Assembly: GCA_039679385.1 (NCBI GenBank)
Contig: JBDKVB010000029.1
Location: 1 to 35,056, forward strand
From: Armatimonadia bacterium
Lineage (GTDB): Bacteria > Armatimonadota > Zipacnadia > Zipacnadales > JABUFB01
Length of the DNA stretch: 35,056 nucleotides
Reading direction: 5' to 3'
Below the pieces are notes generated by a model. It had not been told where the DNA came from, made no database searches, and saw only the letters and a program-made list of their open reading frames with translations. Below are positions 1,300-23,822 of this stretch, one piece after another. Made by a program: the position numbers and the translations under genes. How positions within the stretch are numbered: the first letter of the stretch is position 1; each line of letters starts with the position of its first letter.

Positions 1300-1994
1300 A
1301 GCTGACGGCCGGCATCCGTGTGAGAAACGGCGAGCCATGGGCGGAGGAGTGCCTTGGATCGCTCAGTCGATTCGTCGACGCGATAGTGGTTCTTGACGAC
1401 GGATCGACCGATCGGACGTCAGACATCTGCCGCGCGTGCGATAAGGTTGTGCACTGCATCCGCTGGCAAAAGAGCTTCTTCCATGAGGGGCTGGACCGCA
1501 ATATGGTGCTGGCCCTGGCTCAGGACACGCGACCAGACTGGGTCCTGATGATGGACATAGATGAGGTGTTCGAAGACCGGATCGTCGACAGCATTGACAT
1601 GATGATGCATCAGGACGAGTTCGTAGTCTGGGGCTTCCGCATGCTGCATTTCTGGCGCGGAAAGACGCACTTTCGGTTGGACGCCAACTGGGGCGACGAG
1701 ACACATCACCATGTCCATCCGCGCCTGTTCCGGAGCCAGCTAGGGTTGCACTACCCCCTGCAGACCATCCACGGGGCTCATGTCCTGGGCCTGAGAGGTC
1801 AGGCAGCCCTGTCGAAGGTGCTGATCAGGCATTACGGGTATTCCTACGAGGACAGAATCAAGCAGAAGTACGAGTTGTACTCACGCGTCGACCCGGGAGG
1901 CGACTACCGGCATCTGCTCAACGACGACGGTGCGGTCATGGTGGAGTACAGACCCGGCCTGGAGCTCGAGAAGCTGTTGGCGGTGGGGCCGTGA
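1296..1994 (+). CDS. GT2 family glycosyltransferase
   Basis: Predicted GT-A fold inverting glycosyltransferase of 232 residues. It has the nucleotide-binding segment VVLDDGSTDRT and a metal-binding Asp motif in MMDIDEVFED; both are hallmarks of GT2. The C-terminal part is rich in His and aromatic residues and has no membrane segment, so a soluble or peripheral enzyme is likely. The ATG at 1296 was chosen over an in-frame upstream codon at 1263 because it forms an ATGA overlap with the previous stop and has GAGGAC five bases upstream. Its stop overlaps the GTG of the next gene. It is short for GT2, consistent with a catalytic domain and little else. The sugar it transfers is unknown. Confidence 0.9.
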   Translation: MKLTAGIRVRNGEPWAEECLGSLSRFVDAIVVLDDGSTDRTSDICRACDKVVHCIRWQKSFFHEGLDRNMVLALAQDTRPDWVLMMDIDEVFEDRIVDSIDMMMHQDEFVVWGFRMLHFWRGKTHFRLDANWGDETHHHVHPRLFRSQLGLHYPLQTIHGAHVLGLRGQAALSKVLIRHYGYSYEDRIKQKYELYSRVDPGGDYRHLLNDDGAVMVEYRPGLELEKLLAVGP

Positions 1995-3133
1995 GGATAG
2001 CGGTTGACTGCCGTTCTGTATTCGAGGGGTGCGGCGGAATCGGGAATTACGCGCTACACCTTGTGCGAGCGCTGGCCGCAGTGAACTCGCGGGATGAGTT
2101 CGTGCTCCTGTGTAGCACGTTGCGACCCCAGACCCACGTAGTGCAGCAGGCCAACTTCCGGCAGGTCGCGTGCCCTGCGGCCATGATAGACGCAGGTTGG
2201 GAGCAGTTACAGCTGCCAGCCATGCTCACAGAGCTCGGGGCCGACCTCTACCACAACCCTACCTTCTCAGTCCCTATCGTAGCTCCGTGCCCCACAGTAA
2301 GCACAATCCATGACGTCGTCTTCCACTTCCGGACAGAGCTCGTCGAGCCGCACCTATGCGCATATCTGCAGCAATGGAGCCTGGCTGCTACACGCACCGC
2401 CACACGCATCCTGACTGTATCACAGTACTCCAAACGGGCGATCATGGAGGCCTACGGGGTGCATGAGAGCCGCATCGACGTCACCTACGAGGCCGCAGAC
2501 CTAGCGCGCTTCCGGCCGTCATATGTCGGGCCTCAGGAGGACGAACTGCGCGCGAAGCACGACATCCGCGGCCCGTTCATCCTTTACGTCGGTTCGCTGG
2601 AACCCAAGAAGAACCTCGATCGCCTGCTCGATGCGTACCAGGTTGCGAAGCGCGACGCGTGCATCCCGCACTCACTGGTATTGGCAGGGGGTACTGGTGG
2701 GAGACCATATGACGCACCCGCAGCAATCGCTGAGCGTCGTCTGCAGAACCATGTGCGCGTGACGGGCTTCCTGGCTGATGACCTGTTGCCTTGTGCCTAC
2801 AACGCCGCCGATCTGTTCGTCTATCCGTCACTGTACGAGGGCTTTGGCCTGCCGCCGCTGGAGGCGATGGCGTGCGGCACGCCGTCCATCGTGTCGAACG
2901 GGACCTCCCTCCCTGAGGTGGTGGGTCAGGCGGCTTGGCTGGTCGACCCTGCGGACACGGACGCTCTGGCCGCTGCCTTGGTGCGGCTGTCAACCGACCG
3001 AGGTGCGCACGACCAGCTATCGCGGGACGGCCCACAACGCGCACGGCAGTTCAGCTGGCAGCGGACCGCCCTTGACACACTGGCCTGCTACCGACGTGCC
3101 GTTGGCGAGCATGACGTGCACACCTCCTGCTAA
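1991..3133 (+). CDS. GT4 family glycosyltransferase
   Basis: A 380-residue GT-B glycosyltransferase. It begins MRIAVDCRSV with a Gly-rich acceptor loop (GGIGNYALHL), has the donor-domain entry FILYVGSLEPKKNLDRLL, and the catalytic and donor motif [17 protein letters not shown] followed by SLPEVVG. The start is GTG at 1991, overlapping the previous TGA (GTGA). This places it in the same translationally coupled chain as the two upstream genes. It is clearly related to the products at 133 and 5101. It probably adds one residue of the cluster's glycan; donor and linkage cannot be told. Confidence 0.93.
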   Translation: MRIAVDCRSVFEGCGGIGNYALHLVRALAAVNSRDEFVLLCSTLRPQTHVVQQANFRQVACPAAMIDAGWEQLQLPAMLTELGADLYHNPTFSVPIVAPCPTVSTIHDVVFHFRTELVEPHLCAYLQQWSLAATRTATRILTVSQYSKRAIMEAYGVHESRIDVTYEAADLARFRPSYVGPQEDELRAKHDIRGPFILYVGSLEPKKNLDRLLDAYQVAKRDACIPHSLVLAGGTGGRPYDAPAAIAERRLQNHVRVTGFLADDLLPCAYNAADLFVYPSLYEGFGLPPLEAMACGTPSIVSNGTSLPEVVGQAAWLVDPADTDALAAALVRLSTDRGAHDQLSRDGPQRARQFSWQRTALDTLACYRRAVGEHDVHTSC

Positions 3134-3158
3134 GGCCATGTGACCCAGGGGTAGACAG

Positions 3159-4328
3159 ATGCGTGTATTGCATGTTTCTTCAGAGTACCCACCAATCCAG
3201 GTCTTTGGACTGGGGCGTGCCGTGCAGAGCCTGGCGACGGCGCAGGCTTCGCTGGGTGCGGACGTGCACGTGGTCACCAACAGCATCGGCGGCCAGGACC
3301 GAGATGTTACTATGGAGGGTGTACGGGTGCACCGGATAGACTTCCCGTCTCCACCCAAGCCGCCTGACGACACCTCGGCTGTCATCCAGTTCAACATCTC
3401 GGCACTGCAGACTGCGGCGCGGGTGGCGGACAACACCGGCGTCCCGGATGTGATCCACGTCCACGACTGGCTCACAGTACTCTGCGGACGGGTGCTCAAG
3501 TGGATGCACCCAGCAGCTCAGCTGGTATGTACGATCCACGACACCGCTCAGGGCAAGTACTTCGGACGCCTGGAGCGCTGGCAGCAGTACATGGCCCACC
3601 TTGAGCGCTGGGCAGGGATCGAGGCAGACAGTGTGATCTGCTGCAGCGAGTTCGTTCGAGGGGAGATGATCCAGCACTACGACTGCCCTCCCGGGAGAAT
3701 CGCTGTCATCCCGTGCGGTGTCGACGAACGGAGGTCTGCGGTGGAGGGCGACCTGGCCAGCTTCCGTACGATGTTCGGGGCGCCCGATGACCTGCTGGTG
3801 TTGTACCTGGGGCGCCTGGATCAGGAGAAGGGCGTCGGCGTGCTTCTCGACGCCATGTCTCAAGTGGTCGGGATCGTGCCCCAGGCCAAGCTGCTGCTGG
3901 TCGGCAAAGGACCCCTTCAGGCGGCCCTGCAGGAACAGATGCGCGGGCTCAATCTGGGGTCTCGGGCTGAGTTCGTCGGCTATCTCACAGGGAATGTGCT
4001 CGCGGCCGTGTTGCGACAGGCGGCGGTGCTCGTGGTGCCCAGCCTCTACGAGCCGTTCGGGATCGTGGCTCTGGAGGGCATGTTAACTCACACGCCTGTC
4101 GTCGTCTCAGACACCGGTGGTCTGTCTGAGATTGTGACTGACGGGGAGACCGGTCTGAAGGCGGCCCCAGGCGATGCTCGCTCCCTTGCGCAGGCCATCC
4201 TGCGTGTGCTGTGCGACGACGCCTTGCGCGAGCGACTCGCGGAGAACGGCTACCAGCACGCAAGAACGCACTACGACTGCCGGGACATGGCAGCGAGGAC
4301 CTTGCAGGCCTATGGATGCGAGGCATGA
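3159..4328 (+). CDS. GT4 family glycosyltransferase, glycogen-synthase-like N-terminus
   Basis: A 389-residue GT-B enzyme. The start MRVLHVSSEYPP followed by a Gly-Leu-Gly loop is the arrangement seen in glycogen-synthase-like GT4 proteins, and VIHVHDWLTVLCG is the matching conserved segment. The donor domain has VLYLGRLDQEKGVGVLLDA and the E-x7-E motif in SLYEPFGIVALEGM followed by TGGLSEIV. An AGGGG site lies upstream of the ATG at 3159. It is closely similar in layout to the gene at 7140, a second paralogue pair in this cluster. A role in making storage glycogen is possible from the family but less likely in this cluster of unrelated glycosyltransferases. Confidence 0.92.
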   Translation: MRVLHVSSEYPPIQVFGLGRAVQSLATAQASLGADVHVVTNSIGGQDRDVTMEGVRVHRIDFPSPPKPPDDTSAVIQFNISALQTAARVADNTGVPDVIHVHDWLTVLCGRVLKWMHPAAQLVCTIHDTAQGKYFGRLERWQQYMAHLERWAGIEADSVICCSEFVRGEMIQHYDCPPGRIAVIPCGVDERRSAVEGDLASFRTMFGAPDDLLVLYLGRLDQEKGVGVLLDAMSQVVGIVPQAKLLLVGKGPLQAALQEQMRGLNLGSRAEFVGYLTGNVLAAVLRQAAVLVVPSLYEPFGIVALEGMLTHTPVVVSDTGGLSEIVTDGETGLKAAPGDARSLAQAILRVLCDDALRERLAENGYQHARTHYDCRDMAARTLQAYGCEA

Positions 4329-5097
4329 ACCGCAAGCACAAGCCGACATCGTGATTCCAGTCTACAACCAACTGGAGTACACGCGGGCTTGCCTAGATAG
4401 CCTACGTAGCGCAACTGACTGGCCCCATCAGCTCATCATCATCGACAATGGTAGCAGCGATGGGACCTCAGAGTACCTATCCAGCCTTCAGTCTGCGGGC
4501 TGGCCCCTACAGGTCATCGCGAACAGCCGAAATCTGGGGTTCACCCTGGCGGCGAACCAAGGCATGCGGGCTGCACGCAGTCATTACGTCGTGTTGCTGA
4601 ACAACGACACTACAGTTACCCAGCACTGGCTCTTCGGTCTCCTCCGCGTTGCCGAGAGTTCGGATGACATCGGCATCGTGGGACCAAAGATACTGTCACC
4701 GCAGACCGACTGCATCCGGGGTATCGGTGGCTTGGTCTTCCGTGAAGGACGGGTCCAGGGACCGCTCGGTGAAGGCTGCAGCCGAGAGGACCCCACCTAT
4801 GGGGTGCCCTGTGAGGTCCAGTACGCTGAGGGCTCCTGCATGTTGATTAAGCGACCGGTGATCGAGACCATCGGGTATCTGGACGAGCAGTACGCTCCCG
4901 CGTACTACGAGGACACGGACTACTGCTTTCGCGCTCGGGAGGCCGGGTTTCGCATCGTGTACTCGCCTTATTCCGCTATCTACCACCACTCGACGGTTAC
5001 AGCACAGACCGTGCAGCGCGAAGACAGTCAGTTCACCCGCGCGGCATTGCGCAACGAGCGGACCTTCCGGGAGCGGTGGAGCCACCGGTTCGGGTAG
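4312..5097 (+). CDS. GT2 family glycosyltransferase, rhamnosyltransferase-like
   Basis: A 261-residue GT-A enzyme. It shows VIPVYNQLEYTRACLDSL, IIIDNGSSDGT, the metal-binding segment VLLNNDTTV, and the late acidic motif YYEDTDYCFRAREAGF. This set is typical of the GT2 subgroup that includes rhamnosyltransferases and WcaA/WbbL-like enzymes; the actual sugar is not known. The ATG at 4312 lies within the end of the previous gene (17-base overlap). The longer frame back to 4174 is out-of-frame overlap with the upstream gene and was rejected because its extra 46 residues look like shadow sequence (Arg/Ser/Thr rich). The next gene starts 3 bases after its stop. Confidence 0.9.
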   Translation: MDARHEPQAQADIVIPVYNQLEYTRACLDSLRSATDWPHQLIIIDNGSSDGTSEYLSSLQSAGWPLQVIANSRNLGFTLAANQGMRAARSHYVVLLNNDTTVTQHWLFGLLRVAESSDDIGIVGPKILSPQTDCIRGIGGLVFREGRVQGPLGEGCSREDPTYGVPCEVQYAEGSCMLIKRPVIETIGYLDEQYAPAYYEDTDYCFRAREAGFRIVYSPYSAIYHHSTVTAQTVQREDSQFTRAALRNERTFRERWSHRFG

Positions 5098-5100
5098 CCT

Positions 5101-7143
5101 ATGCAGATCGCAGTGGACGTGAGGCTGCTAGAAGTATCGGGCACGGGGAGTTCAGTCTACACAGCGAACCTTCTGGGTGGACTGATCATGCTGGCTCCCG
5201 ACCATCGTTTCCTGCTCATCTCGGGTTCGCCGCGCACATCACTGCCCTTGCCCGTGGCAGCGAACGTGACAGTGGTGCCGTCCGATGGTGCCGCCCTGTG
5301 CGATGAGCGCTGGGAGCAACTGGTTCTGCCAGTCGAGTTGGAGCGACTGGCTCCGGACGTTTTCTGGTCACCGACCCTAACCTTGCCGATGCTGAAGGCG
5401 TGTCCGAGCGTCCTCACCGTCTACGACTTGGGGTTCGAGGCTCACCCGGAGTACTACTCGCCTGAACTCCGGCGGTACCTCGGTCGGTGGGTCGCCCCAA
5501 GTTGTCAGGTGGCAGACCATCTGGTCGCGCTGTCCCAGTTTGGTCGCGAAGAGCTTTGCCGAACCTACGGAGTGGCAATGGACAAGGTGACTGTGATAGG
5601 AGGGGCTCCGGGCGCGCAGTTCCACCAGCTGGCCGATGGCTCCGGTCTGGGGGCACTCGGCGAACGCCTGAAGGTTGAGGGCTTGTTCGTGCTTGCCGTC
5701 GGCGGGACGGCAAGGAACAAGAACCTCCCGGGTCTGCTGTCCGCCTTCGGGAAGGCGCTGGAGGAGGTTGGGGACGACTGGACGCTGGTCGTGGCGGGCC
5801 GCCCGGGGCCTGGCGTCGCCGAGGCAGCAACACAAGTGCGCAGGCTTGGACTGCACGAGCATGTCGTCTTTGCGGGGCTTGTGTCGGACGGGGAGCTTGC
5901 GCAGCTGTACCGCACGGCGGGTGTATTCGCCTTCCTATCGCTGTACGAAGGGTTTGGCCTGCCGCCGCTCGAGGCCATGGCCTCCGGAACGCCAGTCTTG
6001 TGTTCGCGGACCGCGTCACTGCCCGAAGTGGTCGGTGATGCGGCCTACCTCGTCGACCCTACAGACCAAGCCGAGGTCGCCGAGGGCCTGCTCGCCCTGA
6101 TGCGAAGCACGGCGCTGCGGCGGCAGCTCTCGGCGGCCGGTCTACGTCGCGCGTCGGAGTTCTCCTGGGAACGCTCTGCACAGTGCATGCTGTCAGTGCT
6201 CGAGCGGGCGTCGGGCCTGCGACCGAGACCTCGCCATGGGGGAAAGGACCGTCCTGCACGCGTACTCGTGTCACGCATCGGCGCACGTGGCGACGTTCTG
6301 CAGACCACGCCGGTTCTGCGCGCTGTGAGACAGCGCTGGCCCGGTGCCGAGCTGACCTATCACACAAGCCATGCGCACTGCGAACTGCTCGCCAACAATC
6401 CCGACGTTGACTTGGTGCAGTCAGACAGCCGTCCCATCGCCACGCGGGACTACGATGTGGTCATTGACCTCAACCGTGCCTACGAGGATGCACCAGACCG
6501 CGCCCAACGCCATCGGATCGAGTTGTACGCGCGACGTGCAGGTGTCTCGGTCACAGACACGTCGCTGGTACTCGTCCCAACGGATCTCGAGTACGCCCAG
6601 GCCCGTCGGATCGCGGATGAACATCATCTGGGCGAAGCCGGCACTGTGGTCGGCTTTGGTCTGAGAGCCGTGAGTGTGCAGCAGCGCTGCTGGTTCGACG
6701 ACCGCTGGCAGGGGCTCGCAGACTCGCTTGCCGGCGAGGGTATGCGCATCGTGACCTTTGGCGGTCCTGGGGAGCGCGGGCTGGACGGACCGCGAGTGAC
6801 GAACACAATGGGCGTAGCCGATATGCGAGTCGCACGTGCTCTCATGGAGTACTGTCATCTGGTAGTCACTGTTGACACCGGGTGGGCGCATGTAGCCGCA
6901 TCAGCAGGGAAGCCCATCGTAGGCCTTTTTGGAGCCGATTCCCCACAGTGTGTACTGCCGCCGGATGGCGACTGGGTCGCCATCCGGGCCGAGTTGCCGT
7001 GCTCACCGTGCTTCTGCAGGCCGTGCCGCGACCGCACCTGCATGGACGCTATCACGGTTGACAAGGTCTACAGACAGGTCCTTCGCAAGGTAGGAACGCT
7101 GAGGGGCGATGGTCCAGCCCACCGGGAGGTTGTTCCCACTTGA
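5101..7143 (+). CDS. Bifunctional GT4-GT9 glycosyltransferase fusion
   Basis: A 680-residue protein made of two complete glycosyltransferases. Residues 1-370 are GT4 ([35 protein letters not shown]). Residues about 386-665 are GT9, the ADP-heptose:LPS heptosyltransferase family: [20 protein letters not shown] at its start, [18 protein letters not shown] as the conserved donor segment, and a terminal Cys group ([14 protein letters not shown]) like that of WaaF-type enzymes. Both parts keep their family motifs, so the protein may add two successive residues. Its start is 3 bases after the previous stop and its own stop overlaps the next TTG. The GT9 name does not prove heptose; many members outside LPS pathways use other donors. 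Confidence 0.92.
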
Positions 7144-8330
7144 AAGTGCTGTGCCTAGCCACAGAGTATCCGCCCGCGCGGGGGTATGGTCTGGGACGAT
7201 ACGCTCGTGAACACTGTGCTGCCCTGGTGCGGCACGGAGTCGCGGTCGATGTCGCGTGCAACAACTGGGATAGCGAGGTGGACGCGTACAGGGAGGACGG
7301 GGTATCGGTCCACAATGCGCCGTTGGCAGTCCCGTTCTCTGGTCACACGTGGGTGGCCGACGTGTTGCAGCACAATGTTGTGCTCCTGGGCCGCTGCCTT
7401 GAGATGATGCGCGCCGCTGGGGGCTACAACCTGATCCTGGCACACGACTGGCTGGCAGCAGCAGCAGCGGCAGCTCTCAAAGCCCTCCACAGGGTGCCAC
7501 TAGTCGTGGCCATGCACGACACCCAGAGGGGGAAGACCGCAGGACAGCCTGACGAGAACGAGCAGTACATCGCCCGAGTGGAGGAGTGGATCTGCGAGGT
7601 GGCTGACCTTGTGCTGGCCAACAGCCACTTCATCGAGCGAGAACTCATCCAGGCCTACCAAGTGCCACCGGAGAAGATCACGGTCGTGGGCTGCGGCGTC
7701 CGGTCCGAGGATTTCCAGACCTCGGCCGACATAGAGGTGTTCCGCACGCTTTTCTGTGCTCGTCGAGAGCGCCTTGTGGGGTTCGTCGGCCGCCTCGCGC
7801 GTGTCAAGGGCCCGGACGTCCTGGTCCAGGCGGTCCCGGCCATCCTCAGCGTCTGCCCCGACACGCAGTTCGTCTTCGCTGGTGACGGTAGCATGAGGGA
7901 TGGGCTGCTTCGGCAGGCGCGAGAAGCGGGCGTTGCCGAACGGGTGAGGCTTGTTGGCCATCTCACAGGTGACGTTCTGGCCGCCTTCTACCACGCTTGC
8001 GATGTGATTGCCATCCCGAGCCTCTACGAACCCTTTGGGATGGTGGCACTTGAGGCGATGGCGGCCGGCAGGCCCGTCATCGCCTCAGCCACTGGCGGCC
8101 TGAAGGAAACGGTTCTTGCAGGTGCCACCGGCGTTGCGATCCCTCCGAGAGACCCCCGAGCCCTGGCGTCAGCCGTGGTGCAGCTGCTGATGAACCCGCA
8201 GGCGGCCGCGAGCCTCGGACGTCAGGCTCAGGAACGCATCGCCACGGAGTTCCGTTGGGACGATGTCGCAACGCGCACAGTGCGGGCCTGGGAGCACTTG
8301 GCGACAGCAGACGGCCAGGGAGTGAGGTAG
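7140..8330 (+). CDS. GT4 family glycosyltransferase, glycogen-synthase-like N-terminus
   Basis: A 396-residue GT-B enzyme, paralogue of the gene at 3159: [20 protein letters not shown] at the start, LILAHDWLAAAAAAAL in the acceptor domain, VGFVGRLARVKGPDVLVQA entering the donor domain, and SLYEPFGMVALEAMAAG with TGGLKETV. The start is a TTG at 7140 that overlaps the previous TGA (TTGA), with GGGAGG about 11 bases upstream; an internal GTG two codons later is the only close alternative. It is the last free-standing glycosyltransferase gene before the iron-sulfur-scaffold-like gene, 2 bases downstream. Confidence 0.91.
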   Translation: MKVLCLATEYPPARGYGLGRYAREHCAALVRHGVAVDVACNNWDSEVDAYREDGVSVHNAPLAVPFSGHTWVADVLQHNVVLLGRCLEMMRAAGGYNLILAHDWLAAAAAAALKALHRVPLVVAMHDTQRGKTAGQPDENEQYIARVEEWICEVADLVLANSHFIERELIQAYQVPPEKITVVGCGVRSEDFQTSADIEVFRTLFCARRERLVGFVGRLARVKGPDVLVQAVPAILSVCPDTQFVFAGDGSMRDGLLRQAREAGVAERVRLVGHLTGDVLAAFYHACDVIAIPSLYEPFGMVALEAMAAGRPVIASATGGLKETVLAGATGVAIPPRDPRALASAVVQLLMNPQAAASLGRQAQERIATEFRWDDVATRTVRAWEHLATADGQGVR

Positions 8331-8332
8331 CG

Positions 8333-8710
8333 GTGTTCAGTGACACGGTCATGGACCACTTCACTAACCCCAGGCACGTGGGTACGCTGGCCTCGCCCGA
8401 CGCCGTTGGCACGGCTGGCACGCCCGGACGCGGCAACTACATGGTTCTGCAGCTCAGGGTGGACGGTGACCGCATCGTGGACTGCGCGTACATGACTTTT
8501 GGGTGCCCTCCTGCCATCGCTGCGGGGAGCGCACTGACGGAGATCATCAAAGGGATGCGGACCGGCGATGCACTCCGCATCACCGCTGAGCATCTGGAGG
8601 AGGCGCTAGGTGGGTTGCCCCTGGGCCGGAAGCACTGTGCGGCCCTCGCCGTGCAAGCCCTGCGTGCGGCGCTATCATCCGTTCTGCCGAACGCCTCCTC
8701 AGACGCCTGA
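8333..8710 (+). CDS. IscU/NifU-N-like scaffold protein lacking ligand residues
   Basis: A 125-residue protein with clear IscU/NifU N-terminal similarity: VMDHFTNPRHVG at the start, MTFGCPPAIAAGSALTEIIKG in the middle and LGGLPLGRKHCAALAVQAL near the end. In IscU the cluster is held by three Cys with an Asp beside the first Cys. Here the second Cys (C58) and the His-Cys pair (H101, C102) remain, but the segment that normally reads Cys-Gly-Asp reads Arg-Gly-Asn (R33, N35). Two key positions are therefore changed. The GTG at 8333 with upstream GAGG was chosen; it follows the previous stop by 2 bases. Its place in a glycan cluster with a radical SAM gene is unusual. It could be a partner or regulator rather than a standard cluster scaffold. 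Confidence 0.85.
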   Translation: MFSDTVMDHFTNPRHVGTLASPDAVGTAGTPGRGNYMVLQLRVDGDRIVDCAYMTFGCPPAIAAGSALTEIIKGMRTGDALRITAEHLEEALGGLPLGRKHCAALAVQALRAALSSVLPNASSDA

Positions 8711-9354: not shown

Positions 9355-12300
9355 ATGCAAGACGGTACGAAGCTAGCGACCGTCGTCCGGTTGAACGGAC
9401 TGCGGGCGCGTATGGAGCAACTCGGGCGCCTTCTCGATGCGCCTAGCACTGGACACACACGCCGCACCCTTCGACAGTGCGCGCGGAGCACGCTCAGACG
9501 CATCCATCCGATGCCTGGCAGTCGGTCACCCGTCGGGCGACGCATTGCAAGGGTACTTGCTTCCCTGGAGACGGCAGGGGAAGGGCCTCCAGACATCGCC
9601 GATGAGTTGAGACTGTGTACTTGTCTTGTGGACGCACTCCTGGTCGAGGGAGGTGCCACGGGGGAGGTCCCTGCGGAGTGCAAGGTCCTGTGGATGCCGG
9701 ACATAGGTGCTGCGGAGCCGCATGCATGGCAAGCCTTCGCCGACATCGTCTGGGCTCTCAGCCAGGAGCCGGATCTGGAGCACGGCATCCAGATTCCTGC
9801 AGCGGGTGATGTACCTGAGTGGGCGCTGCGAGCGCTTCCGCCAAGTTGCCCCGTAAGTCACCGCGGGCGGCACAGAAGTCGCGACTGGCTCGCCGACAGC
9901 ATCAACAGTTGGGACCCAGACGTCGTCGTGACCTTCGGAAGATGCGGTACCGTAGCGAAGCTCGCAGGCCAAGCGGCCAGAGGCTATGGGTGGATAGGTT
10001 TCCACGACAGACACGAAGCGATGCGCGTGCACGGGAGCTTGGCTGGCGGAAGTCGGCCGATGGACGTCATGATCTACCCAGTTTGCCGGCGTGTGCCACT
10101 GCATCCGATACCGGCGGCCGGTGGCACGATGTGGGCAGTCGGGGTGCGTTGGTGGGCCGATATCCTTGGTCAGCCGGCGGTCACCAAGGGCGGCGACGGG
10201 GTGGCCTCCAGGGGCGGCACTGTTGGTTGTATCTACTGGGGCCAGTCGGGCCAGGAGGTCGCGGAGGCCGTACGCCACATGAGACGCCTGCAGACCCGGG
10301 GAGGTGCGTCCGAGCTTCTCCCGCTCGACGATGCTCTTGGCAGAGCATTGCACGGTCTGCTGGAGCAAGGTGACCTGGGCCTGGGGATGACGGTTCTGCC
10401 TCCCCCGCCGGGGAGCGGTACAGAGTGGCGCACCAGCTTGGCAAGCGTTCTCGCTAGCTGGGACAGCGTGGTCTCAGTGGGGCCCCACAGTGACGGGGCA
10501 GCACCCATCAAGTGGGCTGCGGTGGTGGGCACCGCCATCGAGGAAGTGCGCGCCCATGGGGCTGATGGGGACAGATCCCTGACAAAGCCTCGCAGTGGGG
10601 CGTCTCAGCGGAGAGCATCACTGTCGGCTGTGGACGTCTGGCGGTCGACGATCATGCAGGTGTCTGGTGTCACGCCACGGTCGATGCAACGCACACACCC
10701 CGAGGTGCAGGCGGAACCTGCCATGGCTCGCCCGGTTCCAGCAGGGCGACGCGTGCTCGTGATGCGCAAAGTGGGGCTGGGCGACGTGGTGATGAGCAGT
10801 GTTGCAGCGCGTGGCGCCAAAGAGCGGTACCCGGGAGCGCACGTGACTTTCGCCACTTCAGACCGCTATCAAGCGATGGCGTCGCACTTCCCCTACGTCG
10901 ATGCGGTGGCCGACGCGGGGCGCGTGGACGAGCACGACTACGACGCGGCGATGCTATTCGATGACAGGCACCGCTTTGACTTCGCCCCCGGGGAAGGGAG
11001 ACGAGAGCGTCTAGACATCCTCTGTGAACTGGGGGGCGTGGCTCCGTGGGACAGAAAGCCCGTGTATGCTCTGGAGTCCGAGGAAGAGCTTCGGGCGATC
11101 GACTACCTCAGGCAGAGGGGATGGTCCGGCTTCCGCAAGCATGTTGGCGTCGTCCTGTCGGCTGCGGGCCGTGCTCGGAACCGAAGCGTGGAGGCTACGT
11201 CCCAACTCCTTACCGCGATGGGCAAACGGTCAGACCTGCAGCCAGTGCTGCTCGATGTGCGCCGGGATAGGGTCGAGCAACTGAACTGCCCACCGGGTAC
11301 GGTCGACACCTGTGGGGAACTCAGCGTCTGCGAACTGGCGGCCGTCATCTCCCATCTCGACGTGCTGGTTACGCCGGACTCTGGCCCTCTGCACCTGGCG
11401 GCCGCGCTGGACGTCCCCTGCATCGCGTTCTTCAGCGAGGTGCCGGCCGATTGCCGCATAGGCTACTACCCCAACTGCGTAGGGCTGGCTAAGCCCGATC
11501 TCTGCGACCAGTACCCGTGTGGCTACGTTGACGTCTGTCGGGATGCGCGGTGCATCAACGAGGTCCGATGGGGTGACCTTGAGCCCCACCTGAACCGGCT
11601 CCTCGACGTCGAGCGCGTCACAATACGCCATGCGGTTGCGCAACCGGAAGACCAGAGCAGCATCGCCATGCTGGCCAACCAGCTGGCACGCGGGCTGCGC
11701 CAGAACGGGTTGTCCGTCCGGCAGCGTCCCGTGGCTGACCCGCGCTCCGCTGCGTACGGCAACGGGTGTATCGTCGAAGCAGGCGGGAAGCGATTCGCAC
11801 TGCTGACATGCGACAACGACATCGCCTGCGCGGCCTGGACGCGAGAGGTGACGGAGCGCTACGACTACCTTCTGTGCTTCAGCCAGCATGTCTACGACGC
11901 CTATCGTCGAGCGGGCGTCCCCGCCCACAGGCTGCTCCCCTTTCAGCTCGGGCTATCAGACAGGCTTCTGGGGGCGCGTCCGCTGCTCCCTGACGTTCCC
12001 GAGAGTACTTTCGTGTTCTTCTTCAATGGCATCTGCCAGGAGCGCAAGAACGTAGAGGGGCTCGTACACGCCTTCCGGAGGGCCTTCTCCCGCGACGAGG
12101 ATGTGATGCTCGCCGTCAAGAGCAGCCCCAGAGCGTGGGATCGGTGCCAGCAGGTGCTGCGGGCTGCAGACAGCGACCTTAGGGCGACGGAGGGCAGACG
12201 CATTCGGGTGTACTCCCAGCTGTGGACAGTAGAGCAGCTGGCGGGCTGGTATCTTCGAACAGCGCGGCGTGGTGCCTATGTGCATCCGCATCGCGCAGGG

Positions 12301-13677
12301 GGATTCGAGTTGCCCGTTCTGGAGGCCCTCGGCTTCGGCGCCCGCGTGGGGACCACCGGCTGGGGTGGCGTTACGGACTACTGCGACGACCACTTGTTCC
12401 CGTATGAGTTGCGCAGGAGCCAGTTCCAGGTGCCCGACCTCTACCACGCTGGGGGGGCTCACCCCAAGTGGGCCGAACCCGATGGCGCAGATATCGAGCG
12501 CTGGATGCGGTGTGTCTACGAGGAGCCTACCACCCCTGCCTCCCAGCAGAGCACGATGCTACGCGTACGGCGCGACTACTCGTGGCGATCGGCGGCACGC
12601 CGACTTGAGTGGTGGACGCACCACGCCCATCGTCGCTACCTGGTGTTTGGTGGCGCAGGATATGGCAATCTTGGGGACGATGCAATGACACTTGCCTTGG
12701 TGGAGCAACTCGGGCGCGAGCGCTGCGTTGTGAGCTCCTATGCGCCCGTAGAGCAGTTCCCTGAGTGGTTCCATGGGCTGCAGGTGCGGCCTTGGGGGGA
12801 TCGTGGTGCGGCAGCAGTTCCGGCCGAAGGCCTCTTCTCCGACGTGCACACAGTTGCCATCGGGGGGCACGGCTGTCGATGGCCCGACATCCTTGAGGGA
12901 CTCTGCCGGCATGCAGTGGCAGCCCTTGAGCACGGCCTTGATGTTGTGTGGCGTGGTATCGGCATTGACGAACCCGATGGGCACCCCATCGATCGCGACC
13001 TGGTGCGCTACGCCTTCGAGACGGCCCGGTACGTGGGCGTGCGAGACAGCAGGAGCAGGGAGATACTGCATGAGTTGGGTGTCCAGCGCTCGGTGACTAG
13101 AGAACCCGATCTCGCGCTACAGCTCCAGGCGGCCCCGAGCAACCTAGCTGCACCTCTGCTGCGGCCCTTTCTTGAGCCCGAGACCCAGCCCTACGTGGTG
13201 CTGTCGCTGAACTCCATGTACGTGACAGAAGGGAATCTGGGTGAGTGGGCTGCGTGGGTGTCCTCGACCATCCACAGTGGACGTCATGTTCTCTGCGTAC
13301 GCATGTGCCGGCACCTCTGGGACGCACGAGAGGACGACATGCTCGCGGCGGTGGCCCTGCGCCGACGCTGTGGGGGAGAAGCTGGCTTCGACCTTCTCGA
13401 CAGCGCGGTGTCTCCGCAGCTGATGCTGGCCATCATGAGGGGCGCAGACATGGTGGTTGGCATGCGGTACCACTCCTGCGTGTTCGCCCACCGCGTTGGC
13501 ACACCAACCGTAGCGGTGTCCAGACAGGACAAGACACGGCGTTTCTGCACTGAGCATGGGGTTGCATGCCTGGACCCTGACCACATAGCGGCGCTGAGTA
13601 GTGCGTGCAAGAGGGTACTGCAGGACGGAAGGCCAACTCAGGAAAGGGGACTGTGCAGCGGTGACAAACCGGCGTAA
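9355..13677 (+). CDS. Multidomain GT9-GT4-polysaccharide pyruvyl transferase protein
   Basis: A 1440-residue fusion. Residues 1-100 are a helical segment resembling the small protein at 8928. Residues about 100-460 are unrecognised but look alpha/beta. Residues about 465-745 are GT9-like (RVLVMRKVGLGDVVMSS; VTPDSGPLHLAAALDVP; a Cys-rich end). Residues about 765-1090 are GT4-like (FFFNGICQERKNVEGLVHAF; HRAGGFELPVLEALGFG). Residues about 1092-1440 match the polysaccharide pyruvyl transferase (CsaB/WcaK) family: LVFGGAGYGNLGDDAM at the start and MRYHSCVFAHRVGTPTVAVS near the end. The last family either puts pyruvate ketals on sugars or has related roles in envelope polymers. The ATG at 9355 was preferred over an in-frame TTG at 9334. 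It overlaps the next gene by 17 bases. Confidence 0.85.
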   Translation: MQDGTKLATVVRLNGLRARMEQLGRLLDAPSTGHTRRTLRQCARSTLRRIHPMPGSRSPVGRRIARVLASLETAGEGPPDIADELRLCTCLVDALLVEGGATGEVPAECKVLWMPDIGAAEPHAWQAFADIVWALSQEPDLEHGIQIPAAGDVPEWALRALPPSCPVSHRGRHRSRDWLADSINSWDPDVVVTFGRCGTVAKLAGQAARGYGWIGFHDRHEAMRVHGSLAGGSRPMDVMIYPVCRRVPLHPIPAAGGTMWAVGVRWWADILGQPAVTKGGDGVASRGGTVGCIYWGQSGQEVAEAVRHMRRLQTRGGASELLPLDDALGRALHGLLEQGDLGLGMTVLPPPPGSGTEWRTSLASVLASWDSVVSVGPHSDGAAPIKWAAVVGTAIEEVRAHGADGDRSLTKPRSGASQRRASLSAVDVWRSTIMQVSGVTPRSMQRTHPEVQAEPAMARPVPAGRRVLVMRKVGLGDVVMSSVAARGAKERYPGAHVTFATSDRYQAMASHFPYVDAVADAGRVDEHDYDAAMLFDDRHRFDFAPGEGRRERLDILCELGGVAPWDRKPVYALESEEELRAIDYLRQRGWSGFRKHVGVVLSAAGRARNRSVEATSQLLTAMGKRSDLQPVLLDVRRDRVEQLNCPPGTVDTCGELSVCELAAVISHLDVLVTPDSGPLHLAAALDVPCIAFFSEVPADCRIGYYPNCVGLAKPDLCDQYPCGYVDVCRDARCINEVRWGDLEPHLNRLLDVERVTIRHAVAQPEDQSSIAMLANQLARGLRQNGLSVRQRPVADPRSAAYGNGCIVEAGGKRFALLTCDNDIACAAWTREVTERYDYLLCFSQHVYDAYRRAGVPAHRLLPFQLGLSDRLLGARPLLPDVPESTFVFFFNGICQERKNVEGLVHAFRRAFSRDEDVMLAVKSSPRAWDRCQQVLRAADSDLRATEGRRIRVYSQLWTVEQLAGWYLRTARRGAYVHPHRAGGFELPVLEALGFGARVGTTGWGGVTDYCDDHLFPYELRRSQFQVPDLYHAGGAHPKWAEPDGADIERWMRCVYEEPTTPASQQSTMLRVRRDYSWRSAARRLEWWTHHAHRRYLVFGGAGYGNLGDDAMTLALVEQLGRERCVVSSYAPVEQFPEWFHGLQVRPWGDRGAAAVPAEGLFSDVHTVAIGGHGCRWPDILEGLCRHAVAALEHGLDVVWRGIGIDEPDGHPIDRDLVRYAFETARYVGVRDSRSREILHELGVQRSVTREPDLALQLQAAPSNLAAPLLRPFLEPETQPYVVLSLNSMYVTEGNLGEWAAWVSSTIHSGRHVLCVRMCRHLWDAREDDMLAAVALRRRCGGEAGFDLLDSAVSPQLMLAIMRGADMVVGMRYHSCVFAHRVGTPTVAVSRQDKTRRFCTEHGVACLDPDHIAALSSACKRVLQDGRPTQERGLCSGDKPA

Positions 13678-14695
13678 CACGCAGAACAGCGAACTGGTTG
13701 CCGCCAACCATGCGCAGAATGAGGCGGAGATGGCCTCAGGACAAGTCACGATGCAGAGCTACCCCGAGCGGCTGTCATTCTACTGGCGCTCACCGTGTAG
13801 CCTGGACTGCGTGATGTGCGGCAAACATGCTCTTGGATACCCCCTAGACGACGAGAAGCAAGTGCTACGTCTGGCGGAATGGGCGGAGGAGGTGTTTCCG
13901 CACTTGGGGGGACTGTGCCTCTGCCCGTCAGGAGAGCCCTTTGAGTCTGACGTGCTTCTCCAGATCGTGGCGCATGCGTACGCGAATACGCGGATTCTGG
14001 TGGTGAGCAACGGGCAGAGGTTGGCGGGGCAGATACTCGACCAGGTCTTTGAGTACCGCGTAGACCATCTCTCTATCTCGCTGAACGCCGCCCGAGCAGA
14101 GACCTACCAGGCTATCACGGGCGCACCCTTTGAAACGCTGCTCACCAACCTGCGCGAGCTACTGCGGCGGCGCTCAGGGGGCGACGGGAGGCCGCACCTG
14201 GATTACTCGATCGTCGCGATGAACCGTACGGCTCCAGAACTCAGGGACTTCGTGCGTCTGGCGGCTGATCTGGGCGGCGAGCGAGCGATCATCCGCAAGC
14301 TCGGGGTGTCGATCCCAGTAGCCGCATGTCGTCGGAACATACGCTTCGATCCCCGTGTAGAGAACGTTCTCACGGACGAGAGCGTGGGCGAGCGCCTCCT
14401 GGATGACCTATGCGCGGTCGGGGAGAGTGCAGGAATCAGGGTGTCGGCCGACTTCGGACGTGCCTTCACGCGGCCACCGTACCGCTATGGACTGCAGACC
14501 TCGCACGCTCTCGACGCACGTCCTTGGAAGGCCTTGGAGTTGACCAGTTGCGGCGATACCAGATTCGCCTGCGGCAAGCCCGCTGACTTGGGGAACGCGT
14601 GGGAGTTCGAGCGTCTCCACGACCTCTGGAACGGTCCCAAATGGGTGGCAGCGCGCGCGGCAACGGTAGCCCGTCCCGCAGAACCAGCGGCGTGA
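13661..14695 (+). CDS. Radical SAM protein with partial C-terminal Cys set
   Basis: A 344-residue protein with the radical SAM cluster motif CSLDCVMC (C46-x3-C50-x2-C53), a GEP-type SAM-binding segment (PSGEPFES), and a later conserved strand (LSISLNAARAETYQAI). These predict a [4Fe-4S] enzyme that cleaves S-adenosylmethionine to a radical. The C-terminus has SCGDTRFACG and an ERLHDLWNG segment like the SPASM/twitch region of peptide- or sugar-modifying members, but with fewer Cys than a full SPASM set. The GTG at 13661, with AAAGGGGA upstream, gives a 17-base overlap with the previous gene. An ATG near 13730 is the alternative. In this cluster a modification of the glycan or its protein acceptor is possible; the substrate is not known. 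Confidence 0.87.
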   Translation: MTNRRNTQNSELVAANHAQNEAEMASGQVTMQSYPERLSFYWRSPCSLDCVMCGKHALGYPLDDEKQVLRLAEWAEEVFPHLGGLCLCPSGEPFESDVLLQIVAHAYANTRILVVSNGQRLAGQILDQVFEYRVDHLSISLNAARAETYQAITGAPFETLLTNLRELLRRRSGGDGRPHLDYSIVAMNRTAPELRDFVRLAADLGGERAIIRKLGVSIPVAACRRNIRFDPRVENVLTDESVGERLLDDLCAVGESAGIRVSADFGRAFTRPPYRYGLQTSHALDARPWKALELTSCGDTRFACGKPADLGNAWEFERLHDLWNGPKWVAARAATVARPAEPAA

Positions 14696-15258: not shown

Positions 15259-18200
15259 CTAGACCTCGTCCTCTGCGTCCTCCTGCCGGGCCGCGTCGAG
15301 GCGCGCCCTAAGGTGACAGCGTACTTGCGCGGCCCAGCTCTGAATGGCCGGTGCTGCCTCGGTACACCATTCCTCCACGACCCGCAGCTTGCCCTCATAG
15401 AACTCAGAGAGCGGACCGCCGAAGACACCCGACACAAAGTTGGCCTCAAGAGCATCGCCAACGCACTCCGGACCGAAGCGCAGCAACAGCGCGCGTGCCG
15501 GGTCAATCAGGGGGCCGTCCCCGACCGGTGCGACCGAAGCTGCAACCCCCGGACCGTCCGGCAGGTTCGCCTCAGCCCACGCTACGAGCCTATCGGCGCC
15601 AACATATTCCCCATACCACCCACGCAGGGACAGCAACAGGCGCAAGGATCTCTCCTCGGGCGCCAGACGGCGTGCGACGGCTTCCCAGACCTGCCCTGAT
15701 TCGGCCTGGGTAGCTGCGATCAGGGCCGCGCAGACCGGGTTCTCCCTGTACAGGTCAACATCACCATCGGTAGCGACCGTCATGCAGGCAGAAGCGACTC
15801 GCGATGGGTCGAGTGGGACCAGCCTCTTGGCGACCTCACCCCAGTAGAACTCACTCATGGTGCTCTTGCCTGCCTGCGCGGAGGCACGCTCCAGAGCCGT
15901 CCAGACGACCTTCTCAGCCTGTGAGACGTCGAAGTCGCCCTTGTGGAGAGCATGGGTGAGCAGCTCGAGAGCGGCATTGGCAGCTGGCGGCTCAACCTGC
16001 AGAAGCACCTCAGCGATCAGAGCCACCAAGAGGGGCTGGGGCGTGTCGAGGGCCCAAGCAGGAGGCAGGAAGCGTCCCTCTCGCACCAGCAGACGCCCCT
16101 GCTCCCGCATCCGGATCAGACGGAGAAGAGCGCGCTCGGTCAGACCAAAGGCGGTAAGCACGTCGAGGAGTGCGTCGTCGGGCATCTCACGATCAACGGC
16201 CCACTCATCCATCTTGTCCTCAAGCCAGTCCAGGCCTCGCCGGTTCGCGACACCGCGCAGGTAGCCAGAGGCAAAGCGGATTGCCCGCGCCCCATTGACT
16301 TCGCCGCGCGCCACAGGCAACCAGACCAAAGAAGTGTCGCGTTCACCTATCAGTACCCCCAGGGGCTCTGCCTGGACGGCCTCAAGTGATGCCAACCAGT
16401 CAAGGTCAAGTTGGTCAGGATGCCCCATGGCTTCGTCGGCAAGCTGGGCCAGTTGCTGCTGAATGTGCTCCCGGCCCTCTTGTGACGACATCTCATGGTA
16501 GCTCGAAGGGCCTGTCCATCGTCGGATTCTCTCTGCGAAGGTCGAGCCCTGCAACCGCTCAGACAGCGCTTCAAGGAGCTCCGCAAGGTCAGTAGGCATC
16601 TCCCTTCGGTCGTGTTGCAGCAGTCGCGAGATCTCGTCGCGCAGACGCGCTCTATCGCGCTCATCATCGAGGCGGTGCCGTTCCAGACGGTCGACGACGT
16701 CTCCACTGAGGCCCATGCGAGCGAGGCCAGCCCAGCTATCCAGCAGTACCTCGGTGGCTGCCCTCTGCACCTCTGGGTTCTGGTCATCGATCGCTGTGTC
16801 GAGGATCACCAGGGCTGATCGCCGCGCTTCCCATTCCTCGCTCCAGCTTTCAGGCCGCCACCTCGGTGGCACGGACATCCCTCCCTGAACTTCACCGGAG
16901 ACGTCGCCAACTTCATGCGTCTGGAGGGCAGCCGCCACGGCACGCACCGCCAGTAGCCGCGACGGCACTGATCCTCCTAGGGCCTCTCGTAGCAGAGCGT
17001 GTCGATCAACCGCGCGGACAGATGTGCCCCCAAGGTGCGTCAAGAAAAGCGATGTCCAGGCACCAGATGCGTTGTTGTCCCACACCTCGTTCTCGGCCTC
17101 TGCGAGCCGGAGCAACAGGCCTGCAGCCGTGAAGAACACCTCCGGATGCCAGGCGGCGCACTGCAGCGCATGGACAACCTGGCGGCGCCCCTGGGTGAAC
17201 TGGAGGAGTTGGTCGCGAGGAACGTGCTCTAGTACCCGCTGCAGAGCACTGACGCCCTCTACCGGGTGCAGTTGTACGAGAACCTGGACTATCTGGGCCA
17301 GTTCGGGGTCCGAGAGCGCTGCCAGGTTCCGGAACGGTCCACTTGGGCCAAGCAGTTGCCTCGTGAAGGCTTCCGCCACCCCCTCGGAGCCCATATCGAG
17401 CACCCTCTGAAGGAGGGACAGGCGGCTCTCGGGAGTGGGCAGGCGCTGCAGCAGTTCCGGTACCTCGTCGCTGCGGCGCGTCCAGACTTCGTTGGCAAGC
17501 CATACGGCCAGCAGTCGTGGCGTCACATACCGGTACCGTCCTGCATCCGCAACAAAGGGCCGGCTGTTCGGGTTGTGAGGTGCGTCCAGCAGGGCATGGA
17601 GGTCAATTCCCATGAAGCAGGCCAGAACTCTGCCCTCCTCAGCGACGTCGCCGCGGACGCCGACCCTCTGCAGGAGCGATAGCGCCTCCACCGCCCTCCT
17701 GTCCTCACGGTCGGGGATGAGAGCAGCGAGCGGGTCCTGGATGTCCTGCACTCGTGCCAGTTCGCTGGCCGAACGCGCCTGGTTGCCCAGGCGCCGGATT
17801 GCCCTCGCCAGGTTGACAGCCAGCTTGACGTAGCCCCCAGACAGATGTATGACCCGCTCCCGTCCAGAGGGAGCCAGATCACGGAAGCTCTCTGACAGCA
17901 GCTTCCGCATCGCGTCGTCGGCTAGCAGCGTGAGGGTGAGCAGACCCGGCGGATTGGCAGTCGTATACATCGATGTGGGGTCGGTCCCGATCGTGAGAAC
18001 CTTCAGGCGTTCGGGAGTGCTGCTCACGTAGAGAGCCATGTTCTGCATCGTGTGCTGGTCGCACTCGTCCACCACCAGGGCCAGGGTAGCCGACCGATGC
18101 GCACGCACCCATTGCAGAATGTCGCCCAGACCTGCAGCTCCGGGGTTCGGACAGTAGAGCACCCGCTCCTCCCACACAGACCCGAGGACGGCCTCCATCG

Positions 18201-18885
18201 CCAGGCGCGTCTTTCCTACTCCGGCCGGTCCCTCGATCCGGACCATGCCGTGCTGTGATGGGCATGCCAACCACTGACGTATCTGCTTGACATCCTCTTC
18301 GCGCTGCTCGTCTGGGTAGAATGTGGCCTCGTGCTCGGGCACCCTCCGCCACTCCTCAAGCGTATGGAGCCCGCCTGCTCTCGGGCGACGGAACACAGGC
18401 AGCATGGCAACAGTCGGGAACTGCTCGGCCCACTCCGCAAGCTCCCCGCCGTCCAGTATCCTGTAGTTCGGAGGCAGCCCATGCGCCTGGAACCATTGGT
18501 CTGCCGCGGCTTTGCGATTCTGACGTGTCCTGATGTTCAACGCGACACCTGTGGCAAGGCACCAGCAACTGCCCGCCTGTAGCTCCGCGGTGACATCGGG
18601 TTTGTCAAGTTCGTCGGTGAGCTGGTGCGGCTTGATGGCGCCGGCTTTGAACTGCCATACGGACCTCACTAAGGGGAGCCGGGAGTTGGCCCCCGCGGGC
18701 GCACCCTCCGCGAGAGCATCCACGCCGCCGTCCGGCACCGTCATGACAGTGCTGGCGGGGCAGATCACTGACTCCGGGGGCATTCCCAACCGTTCGCTCT
18801 CGCACCGCAAGAGATGCGCCATGAAGTCTACGAAGTCAGGCGGTGGCAGTGCGGCAATGTCCTGCGCCGTCGCCCTGAAGGGCAT
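15259..18885 (-). CDS. Mrr-like nuclease fused to STAND NTPase, antiviral-type
   Basis: A 1208-residue protein. Residues 15-110 look like a PD-(D/E)XK nuclease of the Mrr-like type, with GGVDAL (D56) and WQFK (Q78, K80). Residues 200-370 form a STAND-type P-loop NTPase: Walker A GPAGVGKT at 219-226, Walker B LALVVDECD at 268-276, TIGTDPT as a sensor segment, and LSGGYVKLA as the GxP-like motif. The remaining 800 residues are helical and Leu/Ala-rich, as expected for a repeat-type sensor. This layout is that of Avs/bNACHT-like proteins that sense phage products and then cut DNA. The ATG at 18885 was chosen over the GTG at 18924 because GGGAGG lies 6 bases upstream. Function in defence is inferred from architecture. 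Confidence 0.85.
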   Translation of the reverse strand: MPFRATAQDIAALPPPDFVDFMAHLLRCESERLGMPPESVICPASTVMTVPDGGVDALAEGAPAGANSRLPLVRSVWQFKAGAIKPHQLTDELDKPDVTAELQAGSCWCLATGVALNIRTRQNRKAAADQWFQAHGLPPNYRILDGGELAEWAEQFPTVAMLPVFRRPRAGGLHTLEEWRRVPEHEATFYPDEQREEDVKQIRQWLACPSQHGMVRIEGPAGVGKTRLAMEAVLGSVWEERVLYCPNPGAAGLGDILQWVRAHRSATLALVVDECDQHTMQNMALYVSSTPERLKVLTIGTDPTSMYTTANPPGLLTLTLLADDAMRKLLSESFRDLAPSGRERVIHLSGGYVKLAVNLARAIRRLGNQARSASELARVQDIQDPLAALIPDREDRRAVEALSLLQRVGVRGDVAEEGRVLACFMGIDLHALLDAPHNPNSRPFVADAGRYRYVTPRLLAVWLANEVWTRRSDEVPELLQRLPTPESRLSLLQRVLDMGSEGVAEAFTRQLLGPSGPFRNLAALSDPELAQIVQVLVQLHPVEGVSALQRVLEHVPRDQLLQFTQGRRQVVHALQCAAWHPEVFFTAAGLLLRLAEAENEVWDNNASGAWTSLFLTHLGGTSVRAVDRHALLREALGGSVPSRLLAVRAVAAALQTHEVGDVSGEVQGGMSVPPRWRPESWSEEWEARRSALVILDTAIDDQNPEVQRAATEVLLDSWAGLARMGLSGDVVDRLERHRLDDERDRARLRDEISRLLQHDRREMPTDLAELLEALSERLQGSTFAERIRRWTGPSSYHEMSSQEGREHIQQQLAQLADEAMGHPDQLDLDWLASLEAVQAEPLGVLIGERDTSLVWLPVARGEVNGARAIRFASGYLRGVANRRGLDWLEDKMDEWAVDREMPDDALLDVLTAFGLTERALLRLIRMREQGRLLVREGRFLPPAWALDTPQPLLVALIAEVLLQVEPPAANAALELLTHALHKGDFDVSQAEKVVWTALERASAQAGKSTMSEFYWGEVAKRLVPLDPSRVASACMTVATDGDVDLYRENPVCAALIAATQAESGQVWEAVARRLAPEERSLRLLLSLRGWYGEYVGADRLVAWAEANLPDGPGVAASVAPVGDGPLIDPARALLLRFGPECVGDALEANFVSGVFGGPLSEFYEGKLRVVEEWCTEAAPAIQSWAAQVRCHLRARLDAARQEDAEDEV

Positions 18886-18966
18886 GTGGTGCCTCCCTCG
18901 CGCCATGTCAGTCTCTGGCGCCACTTCGCCGATATCACGACGTTTCCTTCATCCTCTGTTTTGTAG

Positions 18967-19822: not shown

Positions 19823-20668
19823 TCAGGGGCGGCGAGTTTTGGTCAACCGATCGACGGGGAACAACCACTGATCCGCCCGGAGATCGGCCTCGAGAAGAGC
19901 GGTCCCGTCAGGGAACACCTCCCCGGCTCTGCGCCCACCCAACTCTATCGCGAGTTGCTGCACTCGGCGTGGTGTTAGCCCCAACCAGATGGCCGCGCGG
20001 GCTGTCGATACGTACTGCTCACCGCCCGGGCCCGGGGGGATTCGGAGCACGCTGCCGAGATCGCCGAGCGGAAGATCAGAGGACGATACCTGTGCCATCC
20101 CCTCGGGTGTTGCGTGGACATGCTTGGCGGATCCCTCGAAGTCGCCACTCAGCGGCATGCCGTTCCTGGCGGCGGCCGCCCGTAGGTGGTGTCTGACCGA
20201 CCCGAGGTAGCGCCCCATGCGCTTGCGCAGATAGCTCACAAAGGAAGTACCTGGCGCGCCCTCCCGCGAACCCCGCTGGAAGTCGAAGCCTTGCACCGCG
20301 CGGCGGAAGGCGCTTTGCAGAGCCTCCGGGGCCCTCTCTGGGACCAGGTCGGCGAGATCGCCTCCTGAACGCCCCAACTGCTCGCCAGTGGCACGAAGCA
20401 TCGCGGCCCAATCGCCTTGCAGCGGGACATAGCAGACACAGTAGAGCGCGTCCAATAGGGAAGAGGATCCCGCGGGGGCCAGGAGCGTTGCCTGCGCCGG
20501 CAGCTTCGCCTGGTACAGGAAGAAGTTCCTCACTTCCTCCAGCACCCGCCGACGGCCGCTTTCCTTGCCGTGTGGGGGGGCGACTGCAGAACCGTACCGC
20601 GTCGGCGGGGCCGACGTACGGGAGTACCCAGAAGGACCACCGACCCCTCCGGTACGGCGCCAGAGCAT
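19823..20668 (-). CDS. C-terminal part of the frameshifted recombinase-like protein, sigma-like
   Basis: A frame that continues the coding character of the gene at 20076 after a +1 shift. Real sequence seems to begin at the 7-C run (minus strand) at 20574-20580; before that it is shadow. Removing one C joins the two frames as FCSRPPHGKESGRRR and gives a single protein of about 937 residues. The part at 20180-20419 resembles sigma-70 region 2: LQGDWAAML, DLADLV, then AVQGFDFQRG and TSFVSYLRKRMGRYL. The C-terminus has a helix-turn-helix-like segment (ARAAIWLGLTPRRVQQLA). Sigma similarity is by pattern only. It is followed by the terminator at 19767. Confidence 0.65.
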   Translation of the reverse strand: MLWRRTGGVGGPSGYSRTSAPPTRYGSAVAPPHGKESGRRRVLEEVRNFFLYQAKLPAQATLLAPAGSSSLLDALYCVCYVPLQGDWAAMLRATGEQLGRSGGDLADLVPERAPEALQSAFRRAVQGFDFQRGSREGAPGTSFVSYLRKRMGRYLGSVRHHLRAAAARNGMPLSGDFEGSAKHVHATPEGMAQVSSSDLPLGDLGSVLRIPPGPGGEQYVSTARAAIWLGLTPRRVQQLAIELGGRRAGEVFPDGTALLEADLRADQWLFPVDRLTKTRRP

Positions 20669-22637: not shown

Positions 22638-22705
22638 CTCCCCTCCAGCTCCGCAAGGTCCAGGCGTCATGGCCGTAGCAGACGTCCGCCCCGACCAAGG
22701 TCGCG

Positions 22706-23692: not shown

Positions 23693-23822
23693 TATCGGCA
23701 CACCTTCCGCGGTGCCGTGCCAGTGGATGAGGGATAACCGTGGCCGGGTTGTGGAGGTAACGCCCGAGCTTCTTGAGCTTGCCCTGCGAGTGGGACGTTG
23801 CAGGTGGTTATGTAGCCCCCTG

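Follow-up and report, generated by a model that had tools for sequence, protein, structure and literature searches.

Glycan enzymes that build a chain and cap it within a single polypeptide are few, and capping with pyruvate has been characterised with separate genes. The Klebsiella O12 polymerase-terminator WbbB is described as carrying out both polymerisation and capping within a single chain (PMC11231755). WbbZ is reported to attach pyruvate at the chain end, so that in vitro growth stops and chains become shorter, and NxGD, RxxxS/T and a histidine are given as the motifs of characterised pyruvyltransferases (PMC10629545). A literature search returned, among the matches listed, no description of a glycosyltransferase (GT) fused to a pyruvyltransferase. 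Here we analyse a stretch of 35,056 nucleotides from an Armatimonadia bacterium (contig JBDKVB010000029.1 of assembly GCA_039679385.1, hereafter the window), which encodes P0001, a five-part fusion protein of 1440 residues (window positions 9355 to 13677, forward strand). We propose, from sequence comparison, that P0001 may be a cytoplasmic multi-module glycan finisher that adds sugar and caps with pyruvate, and we give this tentative reading a probability of about 0.4.

From the N- to the C-terminus, P0001 consists of a predicted four-helix bundle (residues 1-98; 9355-9648), an orphan segment (~100-450; 9652-10704), a module of the GT9 or heptosyltransferase family (~460-745; 10732-11589), a GT4-like module (~760-1088; 11632-12618) and a polysaccharide-pyruvyltransferase module (PyrTr; PF04230, PS_pyruv_trans) of GT-B fold (~1091-1437; 12625-13665), all on the forward strand. 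The frame runs from ATG to stop without interruption, and at local base composition a stop-free run of this length would arise by chance with a probability of about 3e-18. The codon score of the true frame exceeded that of the other frames in every module, residues 1-100, for which no frame was preferred, being the exception, and the GC content by codon position resembled that of neighbour genes. The fusion is known from one genome only, as might be expected if an assembly or frame error had merged separate genes; the 1440 continuously open codons, the best codon score across every module and the likeness of the N-terminus to the neighbouring open reading frame (ORF) P0002, which backs the frame start, make such an artefact most improbable. 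A first-pass annotation of the sequence had described GT9, GT4 and pyruvyltransferase domains in one protein, and this was borne out by the single frame together with Pfam, PHROG, profile and BLAST matches, GT4 remaining under its Pfam cut-off. The fusion is real, and its combination of known parts is apparently unique.

The GT9 module matched PF01075 at residues 639-695 (E = 1.9e-11; 44.2 bits, passing the gathering threshold of 22), and a profile of GT9 modules aligned with the solved heptosyltransferases 3tov (9.9e-45) and 1psw (6.7e-35). It keeps GLGD (GxGD; residues 474-477) and PDSGPLH (674-680), in which D-x-G-x-x-H spans D675 to H680; we take the GxGD aspartate to be catalytic and both motifs to be functional in GT9 enzymes. 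The module also carries a cluster of four cysteines (residues 717-733; window 11503-11553, forward strand). As three of them are invariant in 18 of 18 aligned GT9 rows, the sequences suggest that the cluster is a metal site.

The PyrTr module matched PF04230 over residues 1105-1390 (E = 1.7e-24; 87.6 bits, passing the gathering threshold of 25.3). Conserved motif residues are N1105, G1107 and D1108 (NxGD), R1230 and S1234 (RxxxS), R1371 and H1373 (RxH) and K1393. In an alignment with 38 other PyrTr rows (one locus, L041 and L173, is counted twice and one row, L064, is partial), the columns of R1230 and S1234 are identical in all 38, and those of R1371, H1373 and K1393 in all 37 rows that have a letter. 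That the equivalents of the Arg, Arg, His and Lys that bind phosphoenolpyruvate (PEP) were retained despite great divergence suggests selection on these residues. A structural model built from an 8-row alignment (predicted local distance difference test, pLDDT, 80.1; predicted template modelling score, pTM, 0.82) has the full two-domain GT-B fold, matching UDP-GlcNAc 2-epimerase with Z = 22.1 and a root-mean-square deviation (rmsd) of 4.3 over 307 aligned residues. Fold matches to this epimerase are also reported for a solved pyruvyltransferase in the WbbZ study (PMC10629545). Neither Pvg1p nor WbbZ appeared among the best 50 fold matches listed for the model, and comparison of a PyrTr profile with Pvg1p (5ax7) gave no better than E = 0.8.

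Assignment of the GT4-like module relies on several comparisons. Its Pfam match (PF13692, residues 889-1012) did not pass the cut-off (20.6 versus 27 bits); a PHROG glycosyltransferase family covers residues 818-1084 (E = 5.9e-13), profile-profile comparison with the GT4 proteins of the window itself gave a probability of 94.8%, and BLAST matched GT4 proteins of the phylum. The module keeps the Arg-Lys pair and the second glutamate of E-x7-E, the glutamate pair of which is presumably catalytic in GT4 enzymes.

In the mechanism that we propose, the four-helix N-terminus would dock P0001, perhaps on P0002 or within a GT complex. The GT9 module, to judge by its family and motifs, would transfer a sugar, perhaps heptose, onto the growing chain, and the GT4-like module would either use a changed mechanism to add a second sugar or serve only to hold the acceptor. 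The C-terminal PyrTr module would then ketalate the terminal sugar with pyruvate from PEP, so that the chain would be capped and a negative charge added. Most likely, the substrate would be the glycan made by the neighbouring GT array: in favour of our proposal, P0001 adjoins this array of seven genes, the order of which, from GT2 to the last GT4, is conserved in a sister genus; PyrTr-GT4 fusions are known from the phylum, and WbbZ and WbbB are published precedents for ending and capping a chain. Adding sugars and then capping them with pyruvate, as the first-pass annotation had it, is the best reading of the modules and of the GT9 and PyrTr motifs; it is called into question by the loss of the first GT4-like glutamate and of the PyrTr loop arginine. 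Since GxGD and DSGPLH of the GT9 module and NxGD, RxxxS, RxH and the lysine of the PyrTr module are all kept, catalytic residues have not been lost in all three domains, which that annotation had named as grounds for abandoning its proposal.

Several observations weigh against P0001 as a glycan finisher. In the GT4-like module, Gly982 replaces the first glutamate of E-x7-E. The 19 other rows of the alignment all have this glutamate, as do the window's five GT4 sequences and each of 39 pattern matches in ORFs of the fetched loci (some of which overlap); on inspection by eye it is likewise present in four plasmid relatives, those examined out of 21 plasmid records with a match. In the PyrTr module, the loop arginine equivalent by alignment to R207 of CsaB is Asn1286 (Arg in 36 and Ser in 2 of the 38 other rows), and the position of CsaB Tyr14, mapped by motif, is Ala1101; alanine stands there in 3 of the 38 other rows, namely the PyrTr-GT4 fusions described below. 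For CsaB, the mutants R207D, R148K, R148Q and H308A are reported as inactive and the activity of Y14A as undetectable (PMC10435577). With 4.25-4.7 changes per column, the PyrTr branch is moreover very long, perhaps a sign that its function has changed; in the tree, the P0001 module is unplaced and its long branch meets L064. Further, about 450 N-terminal residues are unexplained, and there is no exporter or polymerase among the scanned array genes, the genome not having been searched for an exporter.

These observations can be read differently: catalysis would be left to the GT9 module, and the other two modules would be GT-B folds, decayed or put to a new use, which bind the acceptor or serve as a scaffold, without pyruvate transfer. 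The missing first glutamate, the missing loop arginine on an extremely long branch and the unrecognised N-terminal part would all fit such decay; on the other hand, a very diverged PyrTr module still has every one of the PEP-binding Arg, Arg, His and Lys equivalents, the frame is intact and codon usage in the modules is normal. We hold this account to be possible, with a substantial minority share of the probability. At the opposite end, P0001 might be a complete single-chain extend-and-cap machine, composed of a new docking domain in common with P0002, residues 100-450 that form a novel enzyme fold or a novel GT family, GT9, a GT4 that dispenses with the first glutamate and a fused pyruvyltransferase by which the chain is ended. 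If this doubtful extension of our proposal were true, one polypeptide would combine sugar transfer with pyruvate capping, an arrangement for which we found no published example.

The first-pass annotation had noted a further unrecognised segment of 360 residues; such a segment exists, its size being about 450 residues, all of them N-terminal. An AlphaFold2 model of the N-terminal part from the single sequence was poor (mean pLDDT 42.0), values of 70-78 being confined to blocks inside the first 98 residues and those of the orphan segment lying mostly below 50. Residues 1-98 resemble the 99-residue P0002 (BLAST E = 0.001; a score as high arose in 1 of 2000 shuffles). The best fold match for residues 1-104 (Z = 11.7, rmsd 2.5, 96 aligned) is under the level that is meaningful for helical bundles. 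At E <= 0.01 the N-terminus matched 3 of 291 genomes of the phylum, one being its own genome and the two others weak; one match, L067 in genome G180, was taken as chance, its host protein being judged alpha-2-macroglobulin-like by eye. The orphan segment had no Pfam match and no convincing relative among the 291 genomes. A fourth GT-B module at residues 100-450, GT-like by eye only, was dropped for want of evidence; comparison of these residues with four GT-B profiles was no better than that of shuffled or reversed sequence.

Upstream of P0001, seven genes form the array GT4, GT2, GT4, GT4, GT2, GT4-GT9 fusion and GT4 (133-8330, forward strand). The GT4-GT9 fusion (5101-7143, forward strand) joins the same two families as P0001 does; unlike P0001, it has GT4 first and both glutamates of E-x7-E, and it shares only 24.5% identity with the P0001 GT9 module. 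In the sister genus g3 (contig C528, L205), the genes from GT2 to the last GT4 follow in the same order with 63% (GT2), 54% (GT4), 60% (GT4), 64% (GT2), 48% (GT4) and 52% (GT4) identity. The fifth of these ends before the GT9 half, and a GT2 gene and an ORF that is sulfotransferase-like by eye stand where the window has the NifU-like gene, P0002, P0001 and the radical SAM gene; both GT9 fusions and P0001 itself are therefore absent from this locus. Given this absence at a syntenic locus, P0001 was added recently, and specifically in this lineage, to a conserved surface-glycan cluster, and illustrates how such a cluster gains finishing steps within one bacterial family.

Between the array and P0001, directly after the last GT4 gene, lies an ORF for a NifU/IscU-type scaffold (8333-8710, forward strand; PF01592, E = 2.3e-32), which keeps two cysteines by eye; we would expect three in a scaffold of this type. 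It is followed by P0002 (8928-9227, forward strand), which nothing else in the genome matched at E below 0.2 and which is by its sequence a candidate partner or duplicate docking domain. Downstream, a radical SAM protein is encoded at 13601-14695 (forward strand; PF04055, E = 5.8e-8); its listed GTG start overlaps P0001, and an ATG at about 13730 is the likelier start. A protein of 1221 residues follows on the reverse strand (15259-18924), with weak matches to STAND/NB-ARC ATPases (nSTAND_NTPase5, E = 5.7e-4, below cut-off), adjoined by ORFs that are recombinase-like by eye (20076-22670 and 22706-23956); this may be a defence or mobile region. Elsewhere in the same genome, a second cluster (L206; G000:C57:1-10158) holds a GT4 gene together with radical SAM-like ORFs.

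The architecture of P0001 was not found elsewhere in the 291 genomes of the phylum, in a scan of 84,980 species, in plasmids or in phages, within the sensitivity of these searches: the phylum search scored two candidates per genome and the species scan needs near-identical stretches of 8 residues, so that a diverged fusion could escape either. The species scan gave no close relative of P0001. Some module was matched at E <= 0.001 in 239 of the 291 genomes, and no ORF of the fetched loci other than P0001 itself matched two different modules by BLAST. Plasmids matched the GT4 module only (in the 20 records listed out of 21), and phages gave one match, to the GT9 module. By Pfam, two PyrTr-GT4 fusions occur in the phylum, L039 (879 residues; 1562-4198, reverse strand) and L040 (876 residues; 1718-4345, reverse strand); a third, L042, is cut by the contig end and its GT4 match is just under the cut-off. 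They share with P0001 the joining of PyrTr with GT4 and the alanine at the CsaB Tyr14 position, and differ in having PyrTr first, no GT9, a length of about 880 residues and a clade of their own. By eye, the tail of L039 and L040 is helical and probably a coiled coil, its end being basic and amphipathic, and it resembles the spacer of known chain-terminating enzymes. Other multi-GT giants of the phylum are L046 (methyltransferase-GT2-GT4-GT4-GT2-TPR) and L051 (GT4-GT2-TPR).

In four genomes of family f6 (loci L055, L158, L160, L161 and L162), a GT9 gene lies within a prophage head module, between the major head protein and an ORF of about 1150 residues, and L055 (G281:C20:60000-72000) and L160 additionally have a GT4 gene after that of the portal. 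PHROG confirmed the terminase in L160 and the portal, protease and head proteins in L055, the remainder being assigned by eye. Phage-encoded glycosylation of the capsid or surface is a possibility in these prophages. P0001 too could have a target other than surface polysaccharide, for instance in protein glycosylation or in a modification borne by a mobile element, as its best GT9 relatives in the phylum sit in the prophage head modules of that other family, its GT4-like module matches a phage glycosyltransferase family and recombinase-like and STAND ATPase-like ORFs lie downstream. We regard this as unlikely, the upstream array being conserved with the sister genus and chromosomal-looking and no phage structural gene being recognised in the scanned parts of the window.

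The first-pass annotation had further linked the pyruvate cap to the anchoring of S-layer proteins, and had asked whether the genome encodes SLH-domain proteins. SLH domains over cut-off do occur, at three places (contigs C121, C15 and C53), none of them on C29, the contig of P0001. One SLH protein (L059, 1396-3108, forward strand) has a signal-peptide-like start, one SLH domain, a collagen-like repeat and possibly an outer-membrane barrel, with a weak iron-uptake-porin match. PF04230 genes number three in the genome, namely P0001 and one each on contigs C157 and C19. With the CsaB model TIGR03609 (cut-off 213.1 bits), the C157 gene passed at 269.2, and the C19 gene (55.3) and the PyrTr module of P0001 (92.6) did not. 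With a true CsaB, scoring above the family cut-off, encoded elsewhere in this genome, SLH or S-layer anchoring is an unlikely job for P0001, and the C157 gene appears the better candidate for it; the link drawn to P0001 was not sustained. PF04230 genes are present in 279 of the 291 phylum genomes, so pyruvylation in the phylum is independent of the fusion. A pyruvylated wall polymer made by P0001 and anchoring SLH or S-layer proteins would accord with its PyrTr module and with the three SLH places, including the one with the porin match. Set against a C157 gene that passes where P0001 falls far short, a contig devoid of SLH places and a pyruvyltransferase family that is near-universal without the fusion, this role is highly improbable.

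Compared with described systems, the PyrTr module of P0001 resembles CsaB (TIGR03609; PMC10435577, PMC6030368) in its PEP-binding Arg, Arg, His and Lys equivalents, and differs in lying far below the family cut-off and in having the loop arginine and acceptor tyrosine replaced. The Klebsiella pair WbbZ/WbbY of the O1 antigen (PMC10629545) shares with P0001 a pyruvyltransferase with NxGD, RxxxS/T and His and a chain made by a multi-GT enzyme; its pyruvyltransferase, unlike that of P0001, is a separate gene. In a natural GT9-GT4-pyruvyltransferase fusion, extension and capping would become testable in one protein. P0001 is like WbbB in uniting several GT modules with a capping module in a single chain, a match by module family only: WbbB has a Kdo cap, GT99, GT102 and GT103 modules and a coiled-coil spacer, whereas the modules of P0001 are GT9, GT4-like and PyrTr and its N-terminus is an orphan.

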